DNA of 64,000 nt from the NCBI GenBank assembly GCA_021786295.1, contig JAJYNO010000024.1, positions 95,848 through 159,847 on the forward strand. The letters are read 5' to 3'. The position numbers and the translations under genes are program-made. Shown here piece after piece: positions 5,802 through 42,313 of this stretch. Source of the DNA: a bacterium (GTDB taxonomy: Bacteria; Elusimicrobiota; Elusimicrobia; Elusimicrobiales; UBA9959). The notes under the pieces are model-generated. The model did no database searches and was not told the DNA's origin. It saw only the letters and a program-made list of their open reading frames with translations. Numbering within the stretch: the first letter of the stretch is position 1; each line of letters starts with the position of its first letter.

Positions 5802-5941
5802 CCTGAAAGTGCCGGGCGCCGCTCGTCACTCGGGCTCGTCGCTTACGCAAGCCTCGCCCTCCGTGACGGTTCCGCTAACCCGGTCCGTAAGCCGCCCGGC
5901 GGGCGCGGATGCCGAGGCGCCGCGGAACGGACCCGACAATT

Positions 5942-28965: not shown

Positions 28966-29835
28966 ATGAGAAAAGCTCTTGGCAGAGGCATAGACTCCCT
29001 GATAACCAAGGTTCAGAATAACGACATTTCCGGGGATATAGTGCAGAAGATCCCGGTCGACAGGATAATCCCCAACCCGTACCAGCCGCGCCGCATCTTC
29101 GACGAGGCCAAGCTGGCCGAATTGGCGGAGTCCATAAAGGCCGGGGGTCTGCTGCAGCCCATCACCGTCTGGAAGAACGGCGGAGATGACGGGTATACGG
29201 TGCTGGCCGGCGAGCGGCGTCTGCGCGCCTGCAGGCTGGCCGGCCTGGAAGATATAGACGCGATAGTAAAAAAGAACCTGGACGACGAGCAGAAACTGGG
29301 CCTCTCCCTTATAGAGAACATACAGCGCGAGGACCTGAACGCCGTGGATACCGCGATGGCTTACCGTCAGCTGATGGACAAATTCGGCGTTTCGCAGTCC
29401 GATATCGCCGGCCGGGTGGGGAAGTCCCGTTCGGCCGTTTCCAACACGCTGCGTCTGCTGGAACTGGACGCGGAGATCCGCCAGGGGGTTCAGAGCGGGA
29501 CGATAGACGAGGGCCACGCCCGCGCCCTGATCTCCGTCCCCGACTCGGCCAAGCGCCGCGAGCTCTACCAGCGCATAGTGGCGGAGCGGATGACGGTGCG
29601 CGAGGTGGAAGCCCTGGCGCACGGCTTCCATCCGGACAGGCCGCGCGCCCCCAGGGCCCCCCGGGCCGGTTCCCGCCGCACGCCGGAGGTGGTGGAGCTG
29701 GAATCCGTGCTGGAGAAGACGCTGGGTACCAAGGTCGAAGTCGTCCCCGGCCCGGGCCCGCAGAACGGTAAAATTGTGATACACTATTTCTCGCTGGACG
29801 ATCTGGATAGGGTGACACAAATTATAAAAAAGTGA
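28966..29835 (+). CDS. parB: Chromosome partitioning protein ParB/Spo0J
   Basis: A 289-aa ParB. The N terminus begins RKALGRGIDSLI, the ParA-stimulating peptide. The CTPase/nuclease fold follows (IIPNPYQPRRIFDEAKLAELAESI, TVLAGERRLRACRLAGL with the GERRxRA motif, LIENIQREDLNAVD). The HTH (SQSDIAGRVGKSRSAVSNTLRLL) recognises parS and a C-terminal dimerisation domain ends LDDLDRVTQIIKK. Shine-Dalgarno AAGGAAGG. Its stop overlaps an in-frame GTG of the next gene, though that gene probably starts at ATG 29847. Confidence 0.96.
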   Translation: MRKALGRGIDSLITKVQNNDISGDIVQKIPVDRIIPNPYQPRRIFDEAKLAELAESIKAGGLLQPITVWKNGGDDGYTVLAGERRLRACRLAGLEDIDAIVKKNLDDEQKLGLSLIENIQREDLNAVDTAMAYRQLMDKFGVSQSDIAGRVGKSRSAVSNTLRLLELDAEIRQGVQSGTIDEGHARALISVPDSAKRRELYQRIVAERMTVREVEALAHGFHPDRPRAPRAPRAGSRRTPEVVELESVLEKTLGTKVEVVPGPGPQNGKIVIHYFSLDDLDRVTQIIKK

Positions 29836-29846
29836 CACAACAGAGC

Positions 29847-31040
29847 ATGGAACGCAATCTGCTGGCGGCGGCGCTGCTGGTCCTTTTGGCGGCCGTTCCG
29901 CCGGCGCAGGCCGCTCCCGCGGGCGGCGGGCCGGCCTTCTCGGCCGGGGCCACGTCGTTCGTCCCGGCGTATTTCGCGCCCGAGATGAACCTCGGGCGCT
30001 ATTACATGTACGCCGACGGCGGCTTCAGCGCCGACTGGTACGTGGGCTATAACAACTGCTGGATAGTCAAGCTGCCGCCGATCCCGACGGGCGGCTACGC
30101 GCGGGCCTTCATCGGCGCCAAGCTGGGCCGCGCCAAGATCATGTCGTGGCCGTCCCCCTGGGACACGGACCCCATCCCCGGCAAGATCTACATGGCCGTC
30201 AACCAGACTCCGGATTTCAGCTCGGACCATACCTATTTCCTGGTGGACGCGGCCGATCTGCCGAGGGAGCCCCTGCCGAACGACTCTCTCGACGGCGTGG
30301 ACTCCTCCCGCTGGTTCTGGGCGGAAGTCCCGCTCTCGCGCGTTTCCTCCGACAAGGACAACTATCTGGCGCTGTGGTCCTCGTCGCAGTATTTCGTCTC
30401 CTCGTCCAGCTCCCCGATAATAGCGGCCGCCATCAGCTCCGACAAGGACCAGGACGTCTGGCTGAACCGCTCCGTAATGGGCAACGCTCCTTCCGGCGGC
30501 GACGTCCTGGAGACCCCGATAAAAGGCATAAAGCCGGCTATGGCGGTCAAACTGGTGCCCTCCAACCCCTACAAGGTCTTCATCAAGGGCTTTTCGGCGG
30601 AATTGACCCCGGACGAGATAAACGTCTTCTTCACCGCCATAGGCGAGGACATCCACGCCGCCTGGCTGGAGGTCTCCTACGACAAGTTCGACTGGCAGCG
30701 CGTGACGCGCTATTTCTTCCGCTCGCCATATTTCTGGACCTTCAAGCGCGACGCGATCTCCCGGGACATGTTCTACCTGCGAGCCGCCGCCGCGGACGGC
30801 CTGGAGAACGTCGGATATTCCAATCCTATAACCATTCCGGCGATGCCGGCGGCCGCCGCCCAGCCCGGCGGCCAGGACCAGGGGCAGGCGCAGGACCAGG
30901 GCCAGGACCAGGGGCAGGCGCAGGACCAGGGCCAGGACCAGGGGCAGGCGCAGGACCAGGGCCAGGCCCAGGGGCAGGAGCAGGGACAGGGCGGCGGGCA
31001 ACAGGATAATTCCGGCGGCGGGTATGACAATGGCGACTGA
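29847..31040 (+). CDS. Secreted protein with Gln/Asp/Gly-rich repeat tail
   Basis: A 397-aa secreted protein directly after parB. The signal peptide is residues 1-23 (ending PAQAAP); the ATG at 29847 is chosen over a GTG at 29832 because the signal peptide then starts cleanly. The main domain (~30-335) is rich in Trp, Tyr and Phe, with a jelly-roll or FN3-like feel (YDKFDWQRVTRYFFRS) but no family I recognise. The tail is a low-complexity repeat GQDQGQAQDQ encoded by exact 30-nt repeats. It overlaps asd by 17 nt. Association with parAB is likely only positional. Confidence 0.65.
   Translation: MERNLLAAALLVLLAAVPPAQAAPAGGGPAFSAGATSFVPAYFAPEMNLGRYYMYADGGFSADWYVGYNNCWIVKLPPIPTGGYARAFIGAKLGRAKIMSWPSPWDTDPIPGKIYMAVNQTPDFSSDHTYFLVDAADLPREPLPNDSLDGVDSSRWFWAEVPLSRVSSDKDNYLALWSSSQYFVSSSSSPIIAAAISSDKDQDVWLNRSVMGNAPSGGDVLETPIKGIKPAMAVKLVPSNPYKVFIKGFSAELTPDEINVFFTAIGEDIHAAWLEVSYDKFDWQRVTRYFFRSPYFWTFKRDAISRDMFYLRAAAADGLENVGYSNPITIPAMPAAAAQPGGQDQGQAQDQGQDQGQAQDQGQDQGQAQDQGQAQGQEQGQGGGQQDNSGGGYDNGD
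30871..30990 (+). repeat. 30-nt tandem repeat inside a coding region
   Basis: Three exact copies of a 30-nt unit (30871-30900, 30901-30930, 30931-30960) and a diverged fourth. Each encodes 10 residues of the Gln-rich tail (GQDQGQAQDQ register). Exact copies suggest recent slippage expansion. Confidence 0.9.
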
Positions 31041-32073: not shown

Positions 32074-32241
32074 ATGCGGATAAAGCTTATGGCCGCGGCG
32101 CTGGCCGTTCTGGCCGCGCTCGCCGCGTGCGATACCAGGAAAAAACCTCCGGAGAACGTTCCGAGGCCGAGGGCCTCGGGCGCCGGCGCGCGCGTCCCGG
32201 CGGACGCGCCGGCCGGGCATTCCGGGGCTTTTGACAACTAG
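32074..32241 (+). CDS. Small Pro/Ala-rich lipoprotein
   Basis: A 55-aa protein. The signal peptide ends in the lipobox LAAC (Cys19), and the mature part is only 37 residues, rich in Pro, Arg and Ala (DTRKKPPENVPRPRA). A Shine-Dalgarno (GGGAGGGGG) precedes the ATG by a few bases. Its stop codon lies inside the ArsR operator, so it belongs to the upstream unit. Function unknown; small lipoproteins of this type are often anchored periplasmic peptides. Confidence 0.55.
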   Translation: MRIKLMAAALAVLAALAACDTRKKPPENVPRPRASGAGARVPADAPAGHSGAFDN

Positions 32242-32260
32242 TTTAGCATTTGCTAAACTA
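32231..32260 (+). promoter_or_regulatory. Promoter with embedded 22-bp ArsR operator
   Basis: TTGACA (32231-32236) is followed after exactly 17 nt by TAAACT (32254-32259). TAGTTTAGCA and TGCTAAACTA, perfect 10-bp arms around TT, occupy 32239-32260, between and over the -10. An ArsR dimer bound here would exclude RNA polymerase. The repressor gene starts 7 nt downstream. Confidence 0.75.
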
Positions 32261-32266
32261 CTATAC

Positions 32267-32569
32267 ATGAGGAAGGTCATGCTCGCCCGCGCGGAAGAGA
32301 TCTCGGCCACCCTCTCCTGCGTCGCGCACCCGGCGCGTCTGATGATCACCTGCATGCTGCTCAAGCGCGAGATGTACGTGCACGAACTCGTCAAAAAACT
32401 CGGCACTACCAAGGGCAACATCTCGCAGCATCTGCGCGTGATGGCCGACCGCGGTCTGATCCAGAAGCGCCGCGACGGCAACCGGATCTTCTACAGCATC
32501 AGGGACCCGAACCTCGCCGACCTCATAGCAAGGGTCAAGAAGCTCTATTGCCCGAATTTCGATATTTAG
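32267..32569 (+). CDS. ArsR-family repressor of the SqrR/BigR persulfide-sensor type
   Basis: A 100-aa winged-helix repressor. The HTH is VHELVKKLGTTKGNISQHLRVMADRGL and the wing is KRRDGNRIFYSI. It has a Cys in RLMITC (Cys29) and one in KKLYC (Cys95), 66 residues apart. In SqrR the sensing cysteines are Cys41 and Cys107, also 66 apart and in the same surroundings (RLxILC; LYC). That pair forms a tetrasulfide bridge with persulfides and releases DNA. So this is a likely sulfane-sulfur sensor (inference from alignment by eye). ATG 32267 would be leaderless; ATG 32279 with AGGAAGG is an alternative start. It heads the TusA/Hdr/DsrE operon. Confidence 0.85.
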   Translation: MRKVMLARAEEISATLSCVAHPARLMITCMLLKREMYVHELVKKLGTTKGNISQHLRVMADRGLIQKRRDGNRIFYSIRDPNLADLIARVKKLYCPNFDI

Positions 32570-32585
32570 CTTAATGGAGGAAATC

Positions 32586-32831
32586 ATGGACCTGAAAGAC
32601 GTGAAAGCAGCTAAAGTCGTTGACGCCCGCTCGATGGCCTGCCCGGGCCCGCTCCTGGAGGCCAAGAAGGGGATAGCCGGCGTGCCGGTCGGCGGCGTGC
32701 TGGAGATCCAGTCCGGCGACAAGGGCAGCCGCGAGGACATTCCGGCGTGGTGCTCCAAGTCCGGCCATGAGTATATGGGCGTGCTGGAGCGCGACGGCTA
32801 CGACAGCCTGTTCGTAACCCGCAAGAAGTAA
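32586..32831 (+). CDS. tusA: TusA-family sulfur carrier
   Basis: An 81-aa protein of the TusA/SirA family. The persulfide-carrying Cys is in MACPGPLLEAKK (Cys19), the hallmark of the family. The rest shows the compact two-layer fold (GVLEIQSGDKGSREDIPAWC, GYDSLFVTRKK). TusA proteins hand sulfane sulfur between enzymes, to DsrE-type proteins or to heterodisulfide-reductase-like complexes. An excellent Shine-Dalgarno (GGAGG) precedes the ATG. It is the first structural gene after the repressor, 16 nt downstream of its stop. Confidence 0.9.
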   Translation: MDLKDVKAAKVVDARSMACPGPLLEAKKGIAGVPVGGVLEIQSGDKGSREDIPAWCSKSGHEYMGVLERDGYDSLFVTRKK

Positions 32832-32845
32832 CCGCTGAGATCCTC

Positions 32846-32887
32846 GGCATCCGGCGCCGGTTCCTCCTTTTTCCGGCGCCGGATGCC
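32846..32887 (+). other. Perfect 15-bp hairpin between tusA and the MvhD-like gene
   Basis: GGCATCCGGCGCCGG pairs with CCGGCGCCGGATGCC across a 12-nt pyrimidine loop. No T-run follows, so it is not a classical terminator. It may stabilise the mRNA end of the repressor-tusA part or attenuate transcription, giving unequal expression in the operon. Confidence 0.6.
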
Positions 32888-32917: not shown

Positions 32918-33304
32918 ATGCCACCCAACAAAAAAAAGATACTGATAATCACCACCAACCACAGTTCCTATCCCGGGGCGGACGCCGTGGGACAGGCCCG
33001 CCTGGCCTATGAGGCCAATACCTATATCATACGCGTTCCGGACCCGGTCATGTTCCCCGAGGACTTCTACCTCGGGGCTTTCGACAAAGGCATAGGCGGC
33101 ATCATCATCATGTCGTCCGGCTCCGACTGCCCGTACGAGGGCGCCTACGAGCGCCTTTCCAAGCGCGTGGCCCGGGTCTACGAGAAGATGAAGGCCAGGG
33201 GCATAAAGGCGGACCGCCTGAAGCTCACCACCATCTGCACGGTGTGCCGGGCGGCCTTCCTCAAAGAGATCTCCGAAATGGAAAAGGCGGTGGCGGCGGC
33301 ATGA
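32918..33304 (+). CDS. MvhD/HdrF-like protein without its iron-sulfur cysteines
   Basis: A 128-aa protein of the methyl-viologen-reducing-hydrogenase delta (MvhD) family, which normally carries a [2Fe-2S] cluster and passes electrons between hydrogenase or formate dehydrogenase and HdrA. The fold is clear (ILIITTNHSSYPGADAVGQARLA, IIRVPDPV, YLGAFDKGIGGIII, CPYEGAYERLSKRV, MKARGIKADRLKL). The positions where MvhD has cysteines read NHSSYPGAD, RVPDPV and MSSGSD; only Cys71 remains, plus a separate CTVC (107-110). Binding of the usual cluster is therefore doubtful. The stop overlaps the next start (ATGA). Confidence 0.8.
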   Translation: MPPNKKKILIITTNHSSYPGADAVGQARLAYEANTYIIRVPDPVMFPEDFYLGAFDKGIGGIIIMSSGSDCPYEGAYERLSKRVARVYEKMKARGIKADRLKLTTICTVCRAAFLKEISEMEKAVAAA

Positions 33305-34590
33305 GCGACATGGAAAAAATAGAGGTTGACGCGCTGGTAGTGGGCTCCGGCATAGCCGGCCTGCAGTCGGCGCTGGACATGGCCGACCAGGGCCTCTCGG
33401 TGGTCATCGTGGAGAAGCGCCCGAGCATCGGCGGCAAGATGATCAGCCTGAGCAAGGTGTTCCCGACGCTGGACTGCGCGAGCTGCATCACGACTCCGCG
33501 CATGGCCTCTGTCTCCCACCATCCGCGCATCACGACGCTGACCTACAGCACCGTGGACGCGATAAAGCGCGAGAACGGCGTCTTCACCGCCGCCGTCACG
33601 CGCAAGCCGCGCTACATCGACGAGAAGGAGTGCATCTCCTGCAAGCGCTGCGAGGACGTGTGCCCCGTCTATCTCCCCGACGAGTACGAAGAGGGCATGG
33701 GCGCCAAGAAGGCCATCACGATCCCGTTCACCAACGCGATCCCGCAGCTGCCGGTCATGGACCCGGAACACTGCATCCGCTGCGGCGCCTGCGCCCGCGC
33801 CTGTCCGAAGGACTGCATAGATTTTCTGCAGCAGCCCGCCCCGGTCGAGATCAAGGCCAAGGCCGTGATCCTGGCCACGGGCTACGAGACCACGCCGATG
33901 ACCGCCAAGAAACAGTACGGCATGGCCAAACTCCCGAACGTGATCTCCCCGATGGCCGCCGAGCGCCTGCTGGCGCCGCACGGCCCGTACGGCCGCGTGC
34001 TGCGCCCGTCGGACGGCATGGTGCCGGGCTCGATAGCCTACGTGCAGTGCGCGGGCTCCCGCGACAAGAGCATCGGGGTGCCTTACTGCTCCCGCGTCTG
34101 CTGCATGTACGCTATAAAGCAGGCGATCCTCCTGTCCGGCTCGCTGCCTATAGCGGACATCACGATCTACTACATGGACATCCGCGCGTTCGGCAAGGGC
34201 TACGAACAGTTCTACAACAACGCGAGGGCGATGGGCATCAACTTCGTCAAGGCCAAGGTGGCCAGGATCACCGAGGACGAGAAGCATAACCCGATCCTGC
34301 GCATAGAGCGGCAGGAGGGGAGCTCCGCCCCGGAGGAAGTGAAGCACGAGCTCGTGGTGCTCTCGCAGGGCCTGCGGCCCGGAGACGACGTGTCCCGCTA
34401 CGGCCTCGGCGCGGAGCTCAACGACTTCGGCTTCGTCAAACTGTCCGACGAGACCGTCTCTTCGGCGGTCACGGCCGGAGCCGGCGTGTTCGCCGCCGGA
34501 GTCTCGAAGGGCCCCCGCGACATCCCCGACTCCGTGGTCGACGCGGGTTCTGCCGCGATGGAAGCCATCAGCTATATAAGGAAACTGTGA
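33301..34590 (+). CDS. Short HdrA/QmoA-like flavoprotein with inserted ferredoxin domain
   Basis: A 429-aa FAD protein. The dinucleotide fold begins VDALVVGSGIAGLQSAL, then comes IGGKM. DCASC (Cys59, Cys62) follows, as in HdrA/QmoA proteins. An inserted bacterial ferredoxin domain holds two [4Fe-4S] motifs, CISCKRCEDVCP (111-122) and CIRCGACARACP (~158-169). The second half has YVQCAGSRD, YCSRVCCMYAIKQA and DIRAFGKGYEQF, typical of HdrA. The N-terminal HdrA domain (ICHCGGN) is absent. The start at 33301 overlaps the upstream stop. QmoA/HdrA-like proteins handle electrons between quinone, flavin and disulfides. Confidence 0.88.
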   Translation: MSDMEKIEVDALVVGSGIAGLQSALDMADQGLSVVIVEKRPSIGGKMISLSKVFPTLDCASCITTPRMASVSHHPRITTLTYSTVDAIKRENGVFTAAVTRKPRYIDEKECISCKRCEDVCPVYLPDEYEEGMGAKKAITIPFTNAIPQLPVMDPEHCIRCGACARACPKDCIDFLQQPAPVEIKAKAVILATGYETTPMTAKKQYGMAKLPNVISPMAAERLLAPHGPYGRVLRPSDGMVPGSIAYVQCAGSRDKSIGVPYCSRVCCMYAIKQAILLSGSLPIADITIYYMDIRAFGKGYEQFYNNARAMGINFVKAKVARITEDEKHNPILRIERQEGSSAPEEVKHELVVLSQGLRPGDDVSRYGLGAELNDFGFVKLSDETVSSAVTAGAGVFAAGVSKGPRDIPDSVVDAGSAAMEAISYIRKL

Positions 34591-36380
34591 TGGACGAGAA
34601 AATAAAGGAAGAAGCCTCTAAGGACAATTACCGGCAGGAGCCGAAGGTCGGCGTCTACATCTGCCACTGCGGCGGCAACATCTCCGACGTGGTGGACGTC
34701 AAGAAGGTGGCCGAGGAGCTCTCGAAGTATCCCGGCGTGACCGTGGCGCGCGAGTACCCCTTCATGTGCTCCTCCAACGGCCAGGACCTGATCACCGAGG
34801 ACATAAAGAACCTCGGCATCAACCGCACCGTAGTCGCGGCGTGCTCCCCCAGCCTGCACGACCTGACCTTCCGCGGCGTGCTGCAGCGCGCCGGCGTGAA
34901 CCCGTACCTGCACGAGCACGTCAACATCCGCGAACAGGACAGCTGGGTGCATAAGCTCGACCACGCCGGCGCCACCGCGAAGGCGATAAAGCTCGCCCAG
35001 GCGGGCGTGGAGAAGGTGCGCCGCAAGGACCCGCTGAACGCGATACGCGTGGCGGCGGAGCAGCGCGTGGCCGTGATAGGCGGCGGCGTCTCCGGCATGC
35101 GCGCGGCTCTCTCCGCGGCCGGCAAGGGCCTGGAGGCCGTCATCCTCGAGAAGGGCCCGCGTCTCGGCGGCAAGCTGCTGGACCTTGGCCGCCTCTACCC
35201 GTCCGGGGAGGAGGCCTCCGCCGTGGTGAAGAAGCTCGAGGACCTTGTTCGCGCTGACAAGAAGATAACCGTCCACACCGACGCCGACATAGACTTCGTC
35301 GGCGGCTTCGTCGGCAACTTCAAGATAAACTTCAAGCTTCCCGGCGGCAAGTCCCAGCAGGTGAAGGCCGGCGCCATCGTCATGGCCACCGGCTACGAGC
35401 ACTACAAGCCCTACAAGGGCGAGTTCGGCTACGGCGAGGCCGCCAACGTGCTCACGCTGCCCGAGTTCATCTCGCTGATGAAGAAGCTGCCCGCCGGGCG
35501 GCTGGAGTACGGCGGCAGGGAGATAAAGAGCCTGGCGCTGATACACTGCGTGGGCTCCCGTCAGGTGGAAGGCGTGCACAAGCCGCAGGCGGACGGCAAG
35601 ATCAACGACTACTGCTCGCGCGTCTGCTGCACGGCGGCCATCAACACCGCCAACCAGATCAAGGAAAAGTACCCCGGCGTGCGGATCTACGACGTGTACC
35701 GCGACATCCGCACCTACGGCATGATGCACGAGAGCTATTACGAGCAGGCCTCCAAGAACGGCGTGCTGTTCTTCCGCCATACCGAGACCGACCAGCCCGT
35801 GGTGACCTCCGACCGCACCGGCCACAATGTAAAGGTGAAGGACGTGCTGACCTGGGGCGAGGAGCTGGAGTTCAAGGCGGACCTCGTGGTGCTGGTCACC
35901 GGCCTTGTGCCCTCCGACATCTCGCTGATAAAGTCGCAGATGAAGATGCCGTCGAGCGCCGACCGTTTCCTGCAGGAGGTGCACCTGAAGCTGCGTCCGG
36001 TGGAACTGGCCAACGCCGGCATTTTCATAGCCGGCGCCGCGCAGTACCCGATGGACTCCACCGAGGCGATGGCTTCGGCCGGCACCGCCGCCTCCAAGGC
36101 CGGCATCCTGCTGGCCGAGCCGGACATCCCGCTGGAGCCGTTCGTCGCGGTCGTCGACGAGAAGAAGTGCACCGGCTGCGGGCTCTGCCCCGCGGAGTGC
36201 TCCTATGACGGCGCGCTGACGATGTCCGAGAAGAACGGCAAAAAAGTGGCCGTCGTGAACCCCGCGCTCTGCAAGGGCTGCGGCGCCTGCGTGGCGGTCT
36301 GCGAGCCGCGCGCTATAGACGTGGCCGGCTGGACGCTGGCCCAGTTCGACGCGATGGTGGAAGCCATCGCAAAGGAATAA
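34590..36380 (+). CDS. HdrA/QmoB-like flavin- and iron-sulfur-protein
   Basis: A 596-aa HdrA-type protein. The N terminus has VGVYICHCGGNISDVVDV and MCSSNGQDLI, then ACSPSLHDLTFR and NIREQDSWVH. The FAD fold is VAVIGGGVSGMRAAL (~160) with LGGKLLDL. YCSRVCCTAAINTANQI and DIRTYGMMHESYYEQA follow. The C-terminal ferredoxin domain carries two clusters (CTGCGLCPAECS, ~527; CKGCGACVAVCEP, ~561). Unlike the short paralogue it lacks the internal ferredoxin insertion, and unlike QmoB it has no fused MvhD domain; a separate MvhD-like gene lies upstream. The ATG at 34590 makes a TGATG overlap. Confidence 0.92.
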   Translation: MDEKIKEEASKDNYRQEPKVGVYICHCGGNISDVVDVKKVAEELSKYPGVTVAREYPFMCSSNGQDLITEDIKNLGINRTVVAACSPSLHDLTFRGVLQRAGVNPYLHEHVNIREQDSWVHKLDHAGATAKAIKLAQAGVEKVRRKDPLNAIRVAAEQRVAVIGGGVSGMRAALSAAGKGLEAVILEKGPRLGGKLLDLGRLYPSGEEASAVVKKLEDLVRADKKITVHTDADIDFVGGFVGNFKINFKLPGGKSQQVKAGAIVMATGYEHYKPYKGEFGYGEAANVLTLPEFISLMKKLPAGRLEYGGREIKSLALIHCVGSRQVEGVHKPQADGKINDYCSRVCCTAAINTANQIKEKYPGVRIYDVYRDIRTYGMMHESYYEQASKNGVLFFRHTETDQPVVTSDRTGHNVKVKDVLTWGEELEFKADLVVLVTGLVPSDISLIKSQMKMPSSADRFLQEVHLKLRPVELANAGIFIAGAAQYPMDSTEAMASAGTAASKAGILLAEPDIPLEPFVAVVDEKKCTGCGLCPAECSYDGALTMSEKNGKKVAVVNPALCKGCGACVAVCEPRAIDVAGWTLAQFDAMVEAIAKE

Positions 36381-36381
36381 T

Positions 36382-36675
36382 ATGGCCGACGTTAAGAAAC
36401 TCGCCGAACAGCTGAAGAAGCTCAACGAGCTCCGCGGCCCGGTGCCGGTTGAGCTGCGCGACTACGTGGCAGCCCAGAACAAGGCGCAGAAGGCGATCCT
36501 CGACGCGCTGAAGGACGGGCCGAAGACGCCGCAGGAGATAGCGGCCGCCGCCGGCCTGCCGCACGACAAGACCATCTGGTACATCGCCGGCCTGCGCAAG
36601 TACGGCAGGCTCGCCGACGTTCCCGCCAAGGGGGACTGGCCCAAGTACGAGCTGAAGAACTCGGAGGCGAAATAA
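36382..36675 (+). CDS. Small winged-helix-like protein in the Hdr operon
   Basis: A 97-aa cytoplasmic protein between the HdrA-like and QmoC-like genes, 1 nt after the former and overlapping the latter. Residues ~30-90 look like a winged helix (AQKAILDALKDGPKTPQEIAAAAGLPHDKTIWYIAGLRKYGRLADV, then PKYEL as wing). It could be a regulator, but its place inside a membrane-complex operon suggests a structural or assembly subunit. No Cys. The function is unknown. Confidence 0.7.
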   Translation: MADVKKLAEQLKKLNELRGPVPVELRDYVAAQNKAQKAILDALKDGPKTPQEIAAAAGLPHDKTIWYIAGLRKYGRLADVPAKGDWPKYELKNSEAK

Positions 36676-37757
36676 TGAAGGTCAACCCGGAACTGATCGA
36701 CGAGATAAAGAAGTACGGCGCCTTCGACATCTCCGCGTGCTTCAACTGCGGCAACTGCACCGCGGTCTGCCCGCTCTCCAAGGAGGACGCCTCGTTCCCG
36801 CGCAAGCTGATCCGCGCCGGCCACGTGGGCATGGAGGAGAAGATAACCTCCGCGATAGAGCCCTGGCACTGCTACTACTGCGGCGAGTGCTCGCAGACAT
36901 GTCCGCGCGAGGCCCAGCCCGGCGAGTACATGATGGCGCTGCGCCGCTACCTGATAGCCAAGTACGACATCACCGGCCTGTCCAAGATCTTCTACAAGAC
37001 CGGCTGGCTGCAGACCTGGCTGACCGCCGGCCTCTTCGCCGCGGTGCTGTGGCTCTATAACGGCTACACCGGGGACTTCGGGGCGCTGGCCGGGAAAATA
37101 GAGATGGCCTTCCCGGTGTACGTGACCATCGCCATAGCCGGCTACCTGTTAAACATGTACCGGCACGCGATAGTCAAACCGCTGGGCGGCATCAAGGCTT
37201 CGCTGAAGCCCGCGCACATCATAGAGACGTTCCTGCACGGCTTCACGCAGAAGAACTTCAACGGCTGCGAGGAGACGGACCTGGTGCGCTGGGGCTCCCA
37301 CCTGCTGGTGATGAGCGGCTACACCCTGACGCTGGTCATCTCCAACTTCCACATGCTGGAGCCGCTGGACAGGCAGTACTCCGCGTTCAGCCCGGTCAGC
37401 CTGCTGGTGTGGTACGCCGGCTTCGCGATAATCGCCGGCGGCGGCGTCATGACGCTGCGCCGCCTGTTCAAGAGCGCCGAGTCGTCCAAGTTCACCCATC
37501 CGAGCGACTGGCTGTTCGTCGTCATGCTGTTCCTGATAGGCCTTTCCACCGTGACGACCCTGGGCTTGAACGTGCTGCACGGCCCGGCCGACCCGCTGCT
37601 GGCCAAGGTGTACCGCGTGAACATAGCCATCGAGACGGTGTGGATACTCCTGGTGGTGCCGTTCACCAAGTGGATACACATCTTCTTCAGGCCGCTGGCG
37701 GTCTACTTCCAGCACGTCAGGAAGGAGGCGGAGGCCGGCACGGCCTTCAGTCTGTAA
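36675..37757 (+). CDS. qmoC: QmoC-like HdrC-cytochrome b membrane subunit
   Basis: A 360-aa fusion. Residues 1-100 are an HdrC-type ferredoxin domain with CFNCGNCTAVCP (22-33) and CYYCGECSQTCP (~66-77). Five or so membrane helices follow (~115-345) in a NarI/HdrE-like cytochrome b domain; candidate heme ligands are in MYRHAIV, FLHGF, WGSHLLV, NVLHGP and KWIHIFF. The HdrC-HdrE architecture without HdrB is that of QmoC, the membrane subunit that links the soluble Qmo flavoproteins to menaquinone. The tail (FQHVRKEAEAG) is cytoplasmic. No aprAB or dsrAB is in the window. Confidence 0.88.
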   Translation: MKVNPELIDEIKKYGAFDISACFNCGNCTAVCPLSKEDASFPRKLIRAGHVGMEEKITSAIEPWHCYYCGECSQTCPREAQPGEYMMALRRYLIAKYDITGLSKIFYKTGWLQTWLTAGLFAAVLWLYNGYTGDFGALAGKIEMAFPVYVTIAIAGYLLNMYRHAIVKPLGGIKASLKPAHIIETFLHGFTQKNFNGCEETDLVRWGSHLLVMSGYTLTLVISNFHMLEPLDRQYSAFSPVSLLVWYAGFAIIAGGGVMTLRRLFKSAESSKFTHPSDWLFVVMLFLIGLSTVTTLGLNVLHGPADPLLAKVYRVNIAIETVWILLVVPFTKWIHIFFRPLAVYFQHVRKEAEAGTAFSL

Positions 37758-38117
37758 ATGGACAAGATAGTTTACGTCGCCACGCATTTCAAGGATTCGC
37801 CGGAGAAGGCCATGCTCCCGTTCGTGCTGTCCAACGCCAGCTTCGCTATGGACGTGCAGCCCCTCATCATAGTGCAGGGCGAGGGCGTGAACCTGGCGGT
37901 CAAAGGCAAGGCTGCGGAAATAAACCACGCGCCCTTCGACCCGCTGGAGAAACTGTTCGCCTCCTACGCGGAGCAGGGCGGCCGGCTGCTGGTCTGCTCC
38001 CCGTGCCTGAAGGCGCGCGGCTACACGGAGGCGGACCTGGTCCCCAACGCCAAAATAGTCGGCGCGGCGAAGGTGATAGAAGAGATCACCTCCGCCAAGA
38101 CGGTGCTGTCGTACTGA
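37758..38117 (+). CDS. DsrE-family protein (1)
   Basis: A 119-aa small alpha/beta protein starting directly after the QmoC stop. The DsrE/TusD fold is visible as IVYVATHF strand, FVLSNASFAMD helix, PLIIVQGEGVNLA, and LLVCSPCLKARG with Cys80 and Cys83. One of these is the expected sulfur-relay cysteine. DsrE proteins accept sulfane sulfur from TusA-type carriers. Here one TusA and two DsrE-type proteins bracket the redox complex. Confidence 0.85.
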   Translation: MDKIVYVATHFKDSPEKAMLPFVLSNASFAMDVQPLIIVQGEGVNLAVKGKAAEINHAPFDPLEKLFASYAEQGGRLLVCSPCLKARGYTEADLVPNAKIVGAAKVIEEITSAKTVLSY

Positions 38118-38130
38118 TCTAAGGAGAATT

Positions 38131-38682
38131 ATGGCTGATATCAAGGAACTGGAAGCGCAGGTGGCGGCCCTCAGGGCCGAGGTGGACACGCTGAAGGCCA
38201 ACGCCCCGGCCGACAAGCTCAGCATGGTGGTGATGAGCGGCGACATGGACAAGCTGCTGGCCTCGTTCATCATAGCCACCGGCGCCGCGGCGATGTACGA
38301 GAAGGTGGTGATGTTCTTCACGTTCTGGTCCATCCCGGCCCTGAAGGACCCAAAGAAGACCGTCTCCAAGGACGCCGTCGGCAAGATGTTCGAGATGATG
38401 CTGCCCAACGGCGCCGCCGGCACCAAGCTCAGCAAGATGAACATGTGCGGCATGGGCAAGGCCATGATCAAGGCCATCATGAAGAAGCATCACGTGATGA
38501 GCCTGCCGGAGCTGATGAAGACCGCGGCCGATTCCGGCGTGGAGATCTACGTCTGCCAGATGAGCATGGACCTGATGGGCTACAAGATGGAAGAGATGAT
38601 AGACTATCCCGGCATGAAGAGCGCGGGCGTCGCCAAGTTCCTCGGCGAGGCCGGCACCAGCAAGGCGACGCTGTTCATCTGA
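38131..38682 (+). CDS. DsrE2-like protein
   Basis: A 183-aa protein with a helical N terminus (ELEAQVAALRAEVDTLKA coiled coil) and a DsrE2 core: LSMVVMSGDMDKLLASFIIATGAAA, FTFWSIPAL, MNMCGMGKAMIK (Cys106), and EIYVCQMSMDLMGYKMEEM (Cys142). Both Cys are conserved in DsrE2 proteins, which are thought to act in sulfur trafficking and often sit beside TusA and rhodanese. AAGGAG precedes the ATG. It closes the operon; a terminator follows after 20 nt. Confidence 0.88.
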   Translation: MADIKELEAQVAALRAEVDTLKANAPADKLSMVVMSGDMDKLLASFIIATGAAAMYEKVVMFFTFWSIPALKDPKKTVSKDAVGKMFEMMLPNGAAGTKLSKMNMCGMGKAMIKAIMKKHHVMSLPELMKTAADSGVEIYVCQMSMDLMGYKMEEMIDYPGMKSAGVAKFLGEAGTSKATLFI

Positions 38683-38783: not shown

Positions 38784-38801
38784 CATCTTATGGAGGAAAA
38801 A

Positions 38802-39998
38802 GTGAAAAAAATAGCGATGTTAGCGGTCCTCGTTCTTACCGGGACCAGCATGGTTTACGCCACCAACGGCGACAACCTCATCGGCGTGGGCCCTACCTCG
38901 CGCGCGATGGGCGGCACCGGCATTGCGGCGTCGCAGGACGCCATCAGCGCCATCTTCTCGAACCCGGCCGCGCTCTCGCAGCTCCCCGGTTCCCAGTTCA
39001 ACTTCGCCGGCACGGACTTCAGCCCGACGGTGAAGGCGAACGTGACAATGCCCGGCGGTTACGGCGGCCCCTGGAAAGCCACCAGCCAGGACGCGGTCTA
39101 CGCGGTTCCTGCCATAGGCGTGGCCACCCCGATAAACGACAAGATGAACTTCGGCATAGCCGCCTACGGCGTGTCCGGCATGGGCGTGGACTACCGCAAC
39201 AAGGACCCGATGAACACCAACACCAAGGTGTCGGTCATGAAGTTCGTCCCGGCGGTATCCTACAAGCAGGGCGCCTTCTCCTACGGCCTCGGCATGGACA
39301 TAGACTACCAGGCCGCCGACTTCGGCGAGGGGCTCTCCCATAACTACGCCGTCGGCGCGCGTCTCGGCGCGGGCTACGAGTATAAGAAGTGGAACTTCGG
39401 CCTGACCTACGTCACCCCGCAGACCGTGGACCACAAGCGCATCTACAACTTCGACGCTTCGGCGCCCTGGAACAGCAAAACCTACGACGACCTCAAACTG
39501 GCCAATCCCGCCCAGTACGGCGCCGGCGTGGCCTACAAGGGCCTCGACAAATGGCTGTTCACGGCGGACGTGAAGTACATAGACTGGGCCAACGCCAAGG
39601 GCTATAAGGACTTCGACTGGCAGGGCCAGACCGTGTTCGCGGTGGGCGTGCAGAACAGGACCACCGACAAGCTGACGCTGCGCGCCGGCTGGAACTACGG
39701 CAAGAACCCGGTCAAGAAGCACTCCGCCTTCAACTCCTCCGACGCCACCGACGTGCAGGGTACGCCCATGAGCAGGTTCGGCTACGAGTACTTCCGCGTG
39801 ATTGGTTTCCCCGGCATAGTGGAGAACCACTTCACCCTGGGCGCCGGCTACGAGTTCTCGCCCAAGTTCGCGCTGAACCTGGGCTACATGCTGGCCCCGG
39901 CCACGACCATCAGCGAGACCGACAACAGCGGCGCCATCACCCTCAAGTCCAAGCTGTCCGAGCAGTCCCTGGACCTGGGCCTGAACTTCAAGTTCTAA
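38802..39998 (+). CDS. FadL/OmpP1-type outer-membrane transporter
   Basis: A 398-aa outer-membrane barrel. The mature N terminus, TNGDNLIGVGPTSRAMGGTGIAASQDAISAIFSNPAALSQL in segments, is the hatch motif of the FadL/TodX family, which lets hydrophobic compounds (fatty acids, aromatics) diffuse through the outer membrane. Many amphipathic strands follow, ending in the barrel-sorting signal LGLNFKF with terminal Phe. GTG at 38802 is preferred: it has GGAGG at the right distance and gives a clean signal peptide ending VYA. An ATG 12 nt upstream overlaps that GGAGG. Confidence 0.88.
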   Translation: MKKIAMLAVLVLTGTSMVYATNGDNLIGVGPTSRAMGGTGIAASQDAISAIFSNPAALSQLPGSQFNFAGTDFSPTVKANVTMPGGYGGPWKATSQDAVYAVPAIGVATPINDKMNFGIAAYGVSGMGVDYRNKDPMNTNTKVSVMKFVPAVSYKQGAFSYGLGMDIDYQAADFGEGLSHNYAVGARLGAGYEYKKWNFGLTYVTPQTVDHKRIYNFDASAPWNSKTYDDLKLANPAQYGAGVAYKGLDKWLFTADVKYIDWANAKGYKDFDWQGQTVFAVGVQNRTTDKLTLRAGWNYGKNPVKKHSAFNSSDATDVQGTPMSRFGYEYFRVIGFPGIVENHFTLGAGYEFSPKFALNLGYMLAPATTISETDNSGAITLKSKLSEQSLDLGLNFKF

Positions 39999-41695: not shown

Positions 41696-41752
41696 ACCTT
41701 TTCGGCGGTGCCGGCGTCAGTATGTTTACAGGACGCAGGACGAGGAGGGGTT

Positions 41753-42313
41753 ATGAAGACTAAGATGAAGATGCTGGCTGTGCTGGGCCTTATCTCGGTC
41801 CTTCCCGCCTCCGGGGCTTTCGCCCAGGACGCCGCCAAGGACCAGCTCAGGACCCGCGACCAGCTCAAGACCCAGGACCAGCTGAAGGAGCAGGACCAGC
41901 TCGGGACCCGCGACCAGCTCAAGACCCGGGACCAGCTGCAGGAGCAGGACCAGCTCGGGACCCGCGACCAGCTCAAGGCCCGGGACCAGCTGCAGGAGCA
42001 GTCCCAACTGAGGGCCAGGGAGCAGTTGAAGGAGCAGGACAAGGCTGGTACCGGGGAGAAGGCTCAGGTCAAGGAGCAGGCCCGCACCCGCGAGATGACC
42101 GGTTCCGATAACGGCAAAGGCGAGACGGTCCGCGAGGCCGCCCGCAACGCCGGCGGGGAGCAGACCCTGAAGAACCAGGAGAAGACCGCCGCCGGCAAGG
42201 TCATAAAAAAAGCCTCTGCTTCCGAGAAGGCCGCCGAGCGCCGCCGCGCCATCAATGCGGAGCGCAAAGCCGCCCGCTCGGAGAACAGGGGCATGGGGGG
42301 CAAGCGCAGGTAA
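41753..42313 (+). CDS. Secreted hexapeptide-repeat (DQLxxx) protein
   Basis: A 186-aa secreted protein: signal peptide (ending SGAFAQ), then eleven hexads of the type DQLKTR, DQLQEQ, DQLGTR (residues ~30-95). A basic, Ala/Lys/Arg-rich C terminus follows (EKAAERRRAINAERKAAR). The repeats should form a long charged helix or coiled coil. A Shine-Dalgarno (GAGGAGGGG) precedes the ATG at 41753. Located after the DUF3106-like gene in the sigma operon. Function unknown. Confidence 0.65.
   Translation: MKTKMKMLAVLGLISVLPASGAFAQDAAKDQLRTRDQLKTQDQLKEQDQLGTRDQLKTRDQLQEQDQLGTRDQLKARDQLQEQSQLRAREQLKEQDKAGTGEKAQVKEQARTREMTGSDNGKGETVREAARNAGGEQTLKNQEKTAAGKVIKKASASEKAAERRRAINAERKAARSENRGMGGKRR
41840..42037 (+). 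repeat. 18-nt tandem repeats (11 units) inside a coding region
   Basis: Eleven 18-nt units encoding DQLxxx hexads. Units 4-6 and 7-9 also repeat as a 54-nt higher-order block, differing at few bases, which points to recent duplication. Confidence 0.88.

Follow-up and report, generated by a model that had tools for sequence, protein, structure and literature searches.

The stretch of DNA analyzed here, 64,000 nucleotides long and hereafter called the window, belongs to a 2.3-Mb Elusimicrobiota metagenome-assembled genome that is 79% complete (G000). It encodes a small ArsR-type regulator, which is preceded by a promoter containing a palindrome and followed on the same strand by genes for putative sulfur carriers, electron-transfer proteins and an outer-membrane protein. 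The features of the locus are as follows.

32231-32236, + strand: -35 element TTGACA (1.7-2.0 bits per base in close relatives)
32239-32260, no strand assigned: predicted operator TAGTTTAGCA-TT-TGCTAAACTA, with 10-bp arms and a 2-bp centre, overlapping the spacer and the -10 element
32254-32259, + strand: -10 element TAAACT, 17 bp from the -35 element and inside the right operator arm
32267-32569, + strand: predicted ArsR-type sulfane-sulfur repressor, 100 aa, with the candidate sensing pair Cys29 (codon 32351-32353) and Cys95 (codon 32549-32551)
32586-32831, + strand: TusA sulfur carrier (Pfam TusA, 65.4 bits; Cys19 of the CPGP motif invariant in 23 of 23)
32918-33304, + strand: MvhD/FlpD-like protein (Pfam FlpD, 66 bits; three cysteines invariant in 23 of 23)
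33301-34590, + strand: HdrA/QmoA-like FAD and [4Fe-4S] protein (partial match to the HdrA2 model, 456.8 bits; PDB HdrA, 2e-110)
34587-36380, + strand: second HdrA-like, QmoB-like FAD and [4Fe-4S] protein (partial match to the HdrA2 model, 474.4 bits)
36382-36675, + strand: 97-aa protein without a family match (predicted model a winged helix)
36675-37757, + strand: QmoC-like protein with two [4Fe-4S] motifs and a membrane cytochrome-b-like part (NF038018, 137 bits, below the cutoff of 300)
37758-38117, + strand: DsrE-like sulfurtransferase (Cys80 and Cys83 invariant in 10 of 10; undetected in many relatives)
38131-38682, + strand: DsrE2-like sulfurtransferase (Pfam DrsE_2, 155.9 bits; Cys142 invariant in 21 of 21)
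38790-39998, + strand: FadL/OmpP1-type outer-membrane protein (Pfam Toluene_X, 95 bits; a regulon member by its own operator in one relative, G043, and a near-operator in another, G026)

The cysteine pair and its subfamily

The 100-residue protein matches the ArsR winged-helix family HTH_5 in Pfam with 50 bits against a cutoff of 22. Two other starts were rejected: an upstream TTG at 32231 lies inside the -35 element, and an ATG at codon 5 is preceded by AGGAAGG in the window, but close relatives lack AGGAAGG and keep the first ATG. Cysteines occur at positions 18, 29 and 95 only. A preliminary description of this DNA had likened Cys29 (RLMITC) and Cys95 (KKLYC), 66 residues apart, to Cys41 and Cys107 of the persulfide sensor SqrR, and the spacing is confirmed; Cys50 and Cys116 of sHdrR lie at the same distance (PMC12423496). 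Spacing alone was nevertheless dropped as proof of sensor type, because the HlyU pair (38/101) is 63 residues apart (PMC10509353) and YgaV carries a one-residue insertion, so that it is the alignment that counts.

Ranked by E-value, the solved relatives are YgaV (5.5e-16), SqrR (3.6e-15) and BigR (1.3e-14). In each of them both sensing cysteines share columns with Cys29 and Cys95; the alignment is free of gaps for SqrR and BigR and includes the one-residue insertion for YgaV. Cysteines lying off the sensing-pair columns had been named at the outset as the result that would speak against the match; the alignment was run, and the two correspond column for column. Among Elusimicrobiota, we aligned the window protein with 32 relatives that are 43-97% identical to it. 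Sixteen residues are invariant across these 33 rows, including Cys29, Cys95 and no other cysteine; roughly one row in three has S, A or H in place of Cys18. As a control for chance we aligned 20 further ArsR proteins, all from the bacterial family of the window, and found a cysteine at column 29 or 95 in none of them.

In a phylogenetic tree the Elusimicrobiota sensors form one clade (support 100/98), which joins YgaV, SqrR and BigR (80/76) apart from the 20 paralogues and Rv0081; with few references included, the sequences lend moderate support to a clade shared with the characterized sensors. An AlphaFold model of the monomer (pLDDT 73.8) has helices at residues 22-33 and 83-94 and places Cys29 in helix 2 and Cys95 at the end of helix 5. 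The N-terminal helix is poorly modeled (pLDDT below 50) and the rmsd to PDB chains is 8-12 Å; a fold search with this model returned YgaV, SqrR, BigR and HlyU first. The BigR equivalog model (NCBIfam NF040642) scores 76.8 bits, below its cutoff of 155. Because the cysteine columns, the paralogue control, the tree and the fold search agree, there is good sequence-based support for placing the protein in the SqrR/BigR/YgaV-type subfamily of reactive-sulfur sensors.

Operator and promoter

The palindrome at 32239-32260, which the preliminary description had called an operator within the promoter, overlaps TTGACA-17-TAAACT. It had also been described as a perfect palindrome of 22 bp; the two 10-bp arms are indeed perfect, whereas the TT centre is unpaired, which leaves 20 of 22 bases pairing. 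When the surrounding 50 bases were shuffled 20,000 times under a Markov model, 5 of the shuffles contained an inverted repeat with 10-bp arms (spacer 0-6). The footprint is sharp in about 30 relatives, close and distant, at roughly 2 bits per base compared with about 0.3 in the flanks: 19 close sequences give the consensus TTGACAacTAGTTTAGnATatnCTAAACTACTATAcATG, most positions of which carry nearly 2 bits, and a TAGTTTAGTATtTgCTAAACTACTA-like site persists in 11 distant ones. The half-sites TAGTTTAG and CTAAACTA are fixed among relatives; the inner positions vary, and their pairing is not kept.

The site is also tied to the presence of the regulator. The motif GTTTAGN6CTAAAC occurs once in the window genome and likewise once in most genomes that carry the regulator, and it is absent from most genomes that lack it. 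A few regulator-less genomes of the order contain single operator-like matches, which are probably due to chance. Matches inside a coding gene (G133/G166) and those outside any regulator-like context (G048 C17 and G051 C35) were set aside as chance. When the whole phylum was scanned with a longer operator pattern, 26 of 295 genomes contained it, almost all of them from the bacterial family of the window.

The start codon of the regulator follows the -10 element by only 7 nt (32254-32269), as it does in most relatives, and on these grounds its mRNA is probably leaderless.

Gene sets behind the sensor

The order of the operon is largely conserved in about 20 genomes, although the DsrE gene is undetected in many of them and DsrE and DsrE2 are swapped in some. 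All cysteines of the TusA, MvhD, HdrA-like, QmoC-like and DsrE proteins are invariant; in DsrE2 this is true of Cys142 and not of Cys106. Of the genomes of the same genus that were searched, every one with a closely similar regulator also has DsrE2, which was found in none that lack such a regulator. The 97-aa winged-helix protein (36382-36675) is conserved between the QmoB-like and QmoC-like genes and, from its predicted model, is possibly a second regulator or a subunit of the complex. PF12139 (APS reductase, the AprAB partner of QmoABC) has no match in the genome, and the control genomes gave none either.

Some other elements of the region were noted in passing. A 15-bp GC-rich hairpin lies between tusA and mvhD (32846-32887), and a bigger structured element often occupies the corresponding gap of relatives. 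In one of them (L036) the gap contains a dispersed imperfect-palindrome repeat of roughly 90-115 bp, which is found genome-wide in G028, G024 and G013, in tens of copies per genome and in both orientations; it has no Rfam match, and the window has a weak match to it near 5829-5881. The predicted proteins at 29832-31040 and 41708-42313 contain short Gln/Asp-rich tandem repeats (GQAQDQGQ; RTRDQLKTQDQL).

In other genomes, relatives of the sensor, mostly with the same operator, precede different gene sets. Four genomes (G026, G018, G011 and G017) have the sensor before a 525-aa multihaem cytochrome. That of G011 belongs to the octaheme cytochromes of the tetrathionate-reductase family (588.9 bits, cutoff 375; solved relative 1sp3, 1e-129). 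Behind it come a cytochrome b and a pair of YeeE-type sulfur-transport halves, of which one terminates in a rhodanese-like domain. In three others (G045, G052 and G039) the sensor precedes a flavoprotein of the CoA-disulfide/persulfide reductase group, which scores 216 bits against a model cutoff of 578.8; in the PDB it matches the CoA-persulfide reductase 8a56, and an NADH oxidase slightly better. The FadL-like gene follows the regulator in G017, stands ahead of it with a 14/16 operator match in G026, and in G043 lies about 235 nt from the operon with an operator of its own (16/16). The palindrome of the regulator is also found about 30 nt upstream of nuoA, the complex I gene, in two species of one genus (G043, L098:4299; G051, L123:1501). 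G017 has three copies of the sensor (L059, L060 and L062), each with an operator; two precede multihaem cytochromes and one the FadL-like gene.

This exchange of sulfur modules between genomes, behind one sensor and one operator, independently supports sulfur as the likely signal.

Proposed mechanism, alternatives and comparison with known systems

Taken together, the locus is strongly predicted to encode an autoregulated repressor of the SqrR/BigR/YgaV kind that controls a sulfur operon and is released by sulfane sulfur. In its reduced form, the homodimeric winged-helix repressor would bind TAGTTTAG-N6-CTAAACTA, between and over the -35 and -10 elements, and so block its own promoter together with the sulfur operon downstream; this would be the kind of site at which known persulfide sensors block promoters. 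In characterized relatives, persulfide donors produce a tetrasulfide between the two cysteines and the protein leaves the DNA (HlyU, PMC10509353; sHdrR, PMC12423496), whereas H2O2 and disulfide cause neither bridging nor release (PMC10509353; PMC12423496). By analogy, the same persulfide chemistry, repression and release are expected in the window protein: when persulfide or polysulfide is present, a polysulfide bridge would join Cys29 and Cys95, and the bridged dimer would leave the DNA, allowing the regulator, TusA, MvhD, the HdrA/Qmo-like subunits, DsrE, DsrE2 and the FadL-like porin to be made. Sulfane sulfur probably then enters through the porin and is relayed by TusA, DsrE and DsrE2 to a membrane-bound Qmo/Hdr-like complex, which would reduce it with electrons from the quinone pool.

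We give this reductive direction roughly even weight, with moderate support; it is favored because the alternative modules belong to reductase families and because complex I joins the regulon in one genus. The main rival, which we consider less likely, keeps the sensor as described and reverses the operon, so that the Hdr/Qmo-like complex oxidizes sulfane sulfur delivered by TusA and DsrE and passes the electrons to quinone, as sHdr of Hyphomicrobium does. In regulation the nearest parallel is sHdrR, which does govern a sulfur-oxidizing Hdr-like system (PMC12423496), and TusA and DsrE proteins adjoin hdr genes in sulfur-oxidizing archaea (PMC4175335). However, Pfam finds no HdrB-type CCG protein among the ten operon proteins, and the CCG matches of the window genome lie on another contig, in a frame of about 486 aa. 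The NIR_SIR domain of sulfite reductases such as DsrAB was likewise not found in the operon-bearing genomes, and ten close relatives agree, all of these genomes being incomplete. The reductase families behind the same sensor also speak against oxidation.

A rather unlikely alternative is that the operon serves the detoxification of sulfide and polysulfide or the supply of sulfur for biosynthesis, rather than energy metabolism. Several sensors of the SqrR/BigR type govern the clearance of sulfide and persulfide (general knowledge of the family; PMC10509353), but a QmoC-like membrane subunit and two HdrA-like electron-transfer proteins exceed what detoxification needs, and the operator is shared with complex I in one genus.

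It is improbable that the cysteines sense another signal, such as peroxide or disulfide stress, heme or a thiophilic metal. ArsR proteins that use cysteines to sense metals, metalloids or peroxide are known (PMC10509353). Against this, the CVC motif typical of metal or arsenic sensors is present in most of the 20 paralogues from the same family, while the window protein has neither a CxC in helix 3 nor a His in its C-terminal helix. Moreover, characterized proteins with the same pair answer persulfides rather than H2O2 or disulfide (PMC10509353), and the genes linked to the sensor are sulfur genes in three different contexts. Lastly, that the palindrome is an RNA hairpin or terminator is suggested by its perfect 10-bp arms but is very improbable, and we rejected it on the footprint pattern (fixed half-sites, with inner positions changing without preserving pairing) and on the copies at the unlinked nuoA and FadL-like genes; it also sits upstream of the predicted transcription start.

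Returning to the sulfane-sulfur repressor, a wider reading is possible, though tentative: an Elusimicrobiota sulfane-sulfur regulon in which sensor and operator stay fixed while sulfur-reduction modules are exchanged behind them, namely the Qmo-like TusA/DsrE2 complex, the octaheme tetrathionate-reductase-family system with its YeeE transporter, and the persulfide reductase, with sulfur entering by the FadL-like porin and with complex I included in one genus. Were this so, organisms without Dsr would respire sulfur by means of a new Qmo-like sulfur reductase linked to quinol. If the sensor itself is as described, it would name the signal, sulfane sulfur, for an operon whose function is otherwise unclear, the exact operator would allow the regulon to be mapped in uncultured genomes, and the sulfur metabolism indicated would be one that lacks both sulfite reductase and HdrB. 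With modules exchanged behind a single sensor, the function of each may be guessed from the others. The findings suggest that little-known Elusimicrobia may switch on sulfur chemistry when reactive sulfur is present.

In the open literature we found neither a persulfide sensor described from Elusimicrobiota nor one placed before a Qmo-like operon. The sensor is of a known kind, in a phylum where we found none described, and the regulon would be the more surprising part; most surprising would be the exchange of modules and the Qmo-like operon lacking HdrB and sulfite reductase, the operons having been compared within Elusimicrobiota.

The window regulator shares the ArsR winged-helix fold and the sensing-cysteine columns with SqrR of Rhodobacter capsulatus, BigR of Xylella and Acinetobacter, and YgaV of E. 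coli. It differs from them in scoring below the BigR equivalog cutoff, in forming part of a clade of its own and in having its own operator sequence and target operon. The sHdrR and SoxR proteins of Hyphomicrobium denitrificans belong to the same subfamily, and sHdrR governs Hdr-like sulfur genes (PMC12423496), whereas the target here is a Qmo/MvhD/DsrE2 operon that lacks the HdrB-type CCG subunit of the sulfur-oxidizing sHdr system. Like QmoABC of sulfate reducers, the operon encodes two HdrA-like flavoproteins and a QmoC-like membrane subunit, in that order. Unlike QmoABC, its QmoC-like protein falls short of the family cutoff, MvhD is a separate gene and sulfurtransferases lie inside the operon; the genomes bearing it also gave no sulfite reductase. 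It has TusA and a DsrE-like protein in common with the YTD cluster of sulfur disproportionators (PMC12998232), but it has no Pfam match to Sulf_transp, the YedE transporter, and contains Hdr/Qmo-like genes. Finally, the dsrE3A-dsrE2B-tusA cluster beside the hdr genes of Metallosphaera (PMC4175335) likewise sets TusA and DsrE-family carriers next to Hdr-like genes; to this arrangement the window operon adds QmoC-like and MvhD genes, under an ArsR regulator.
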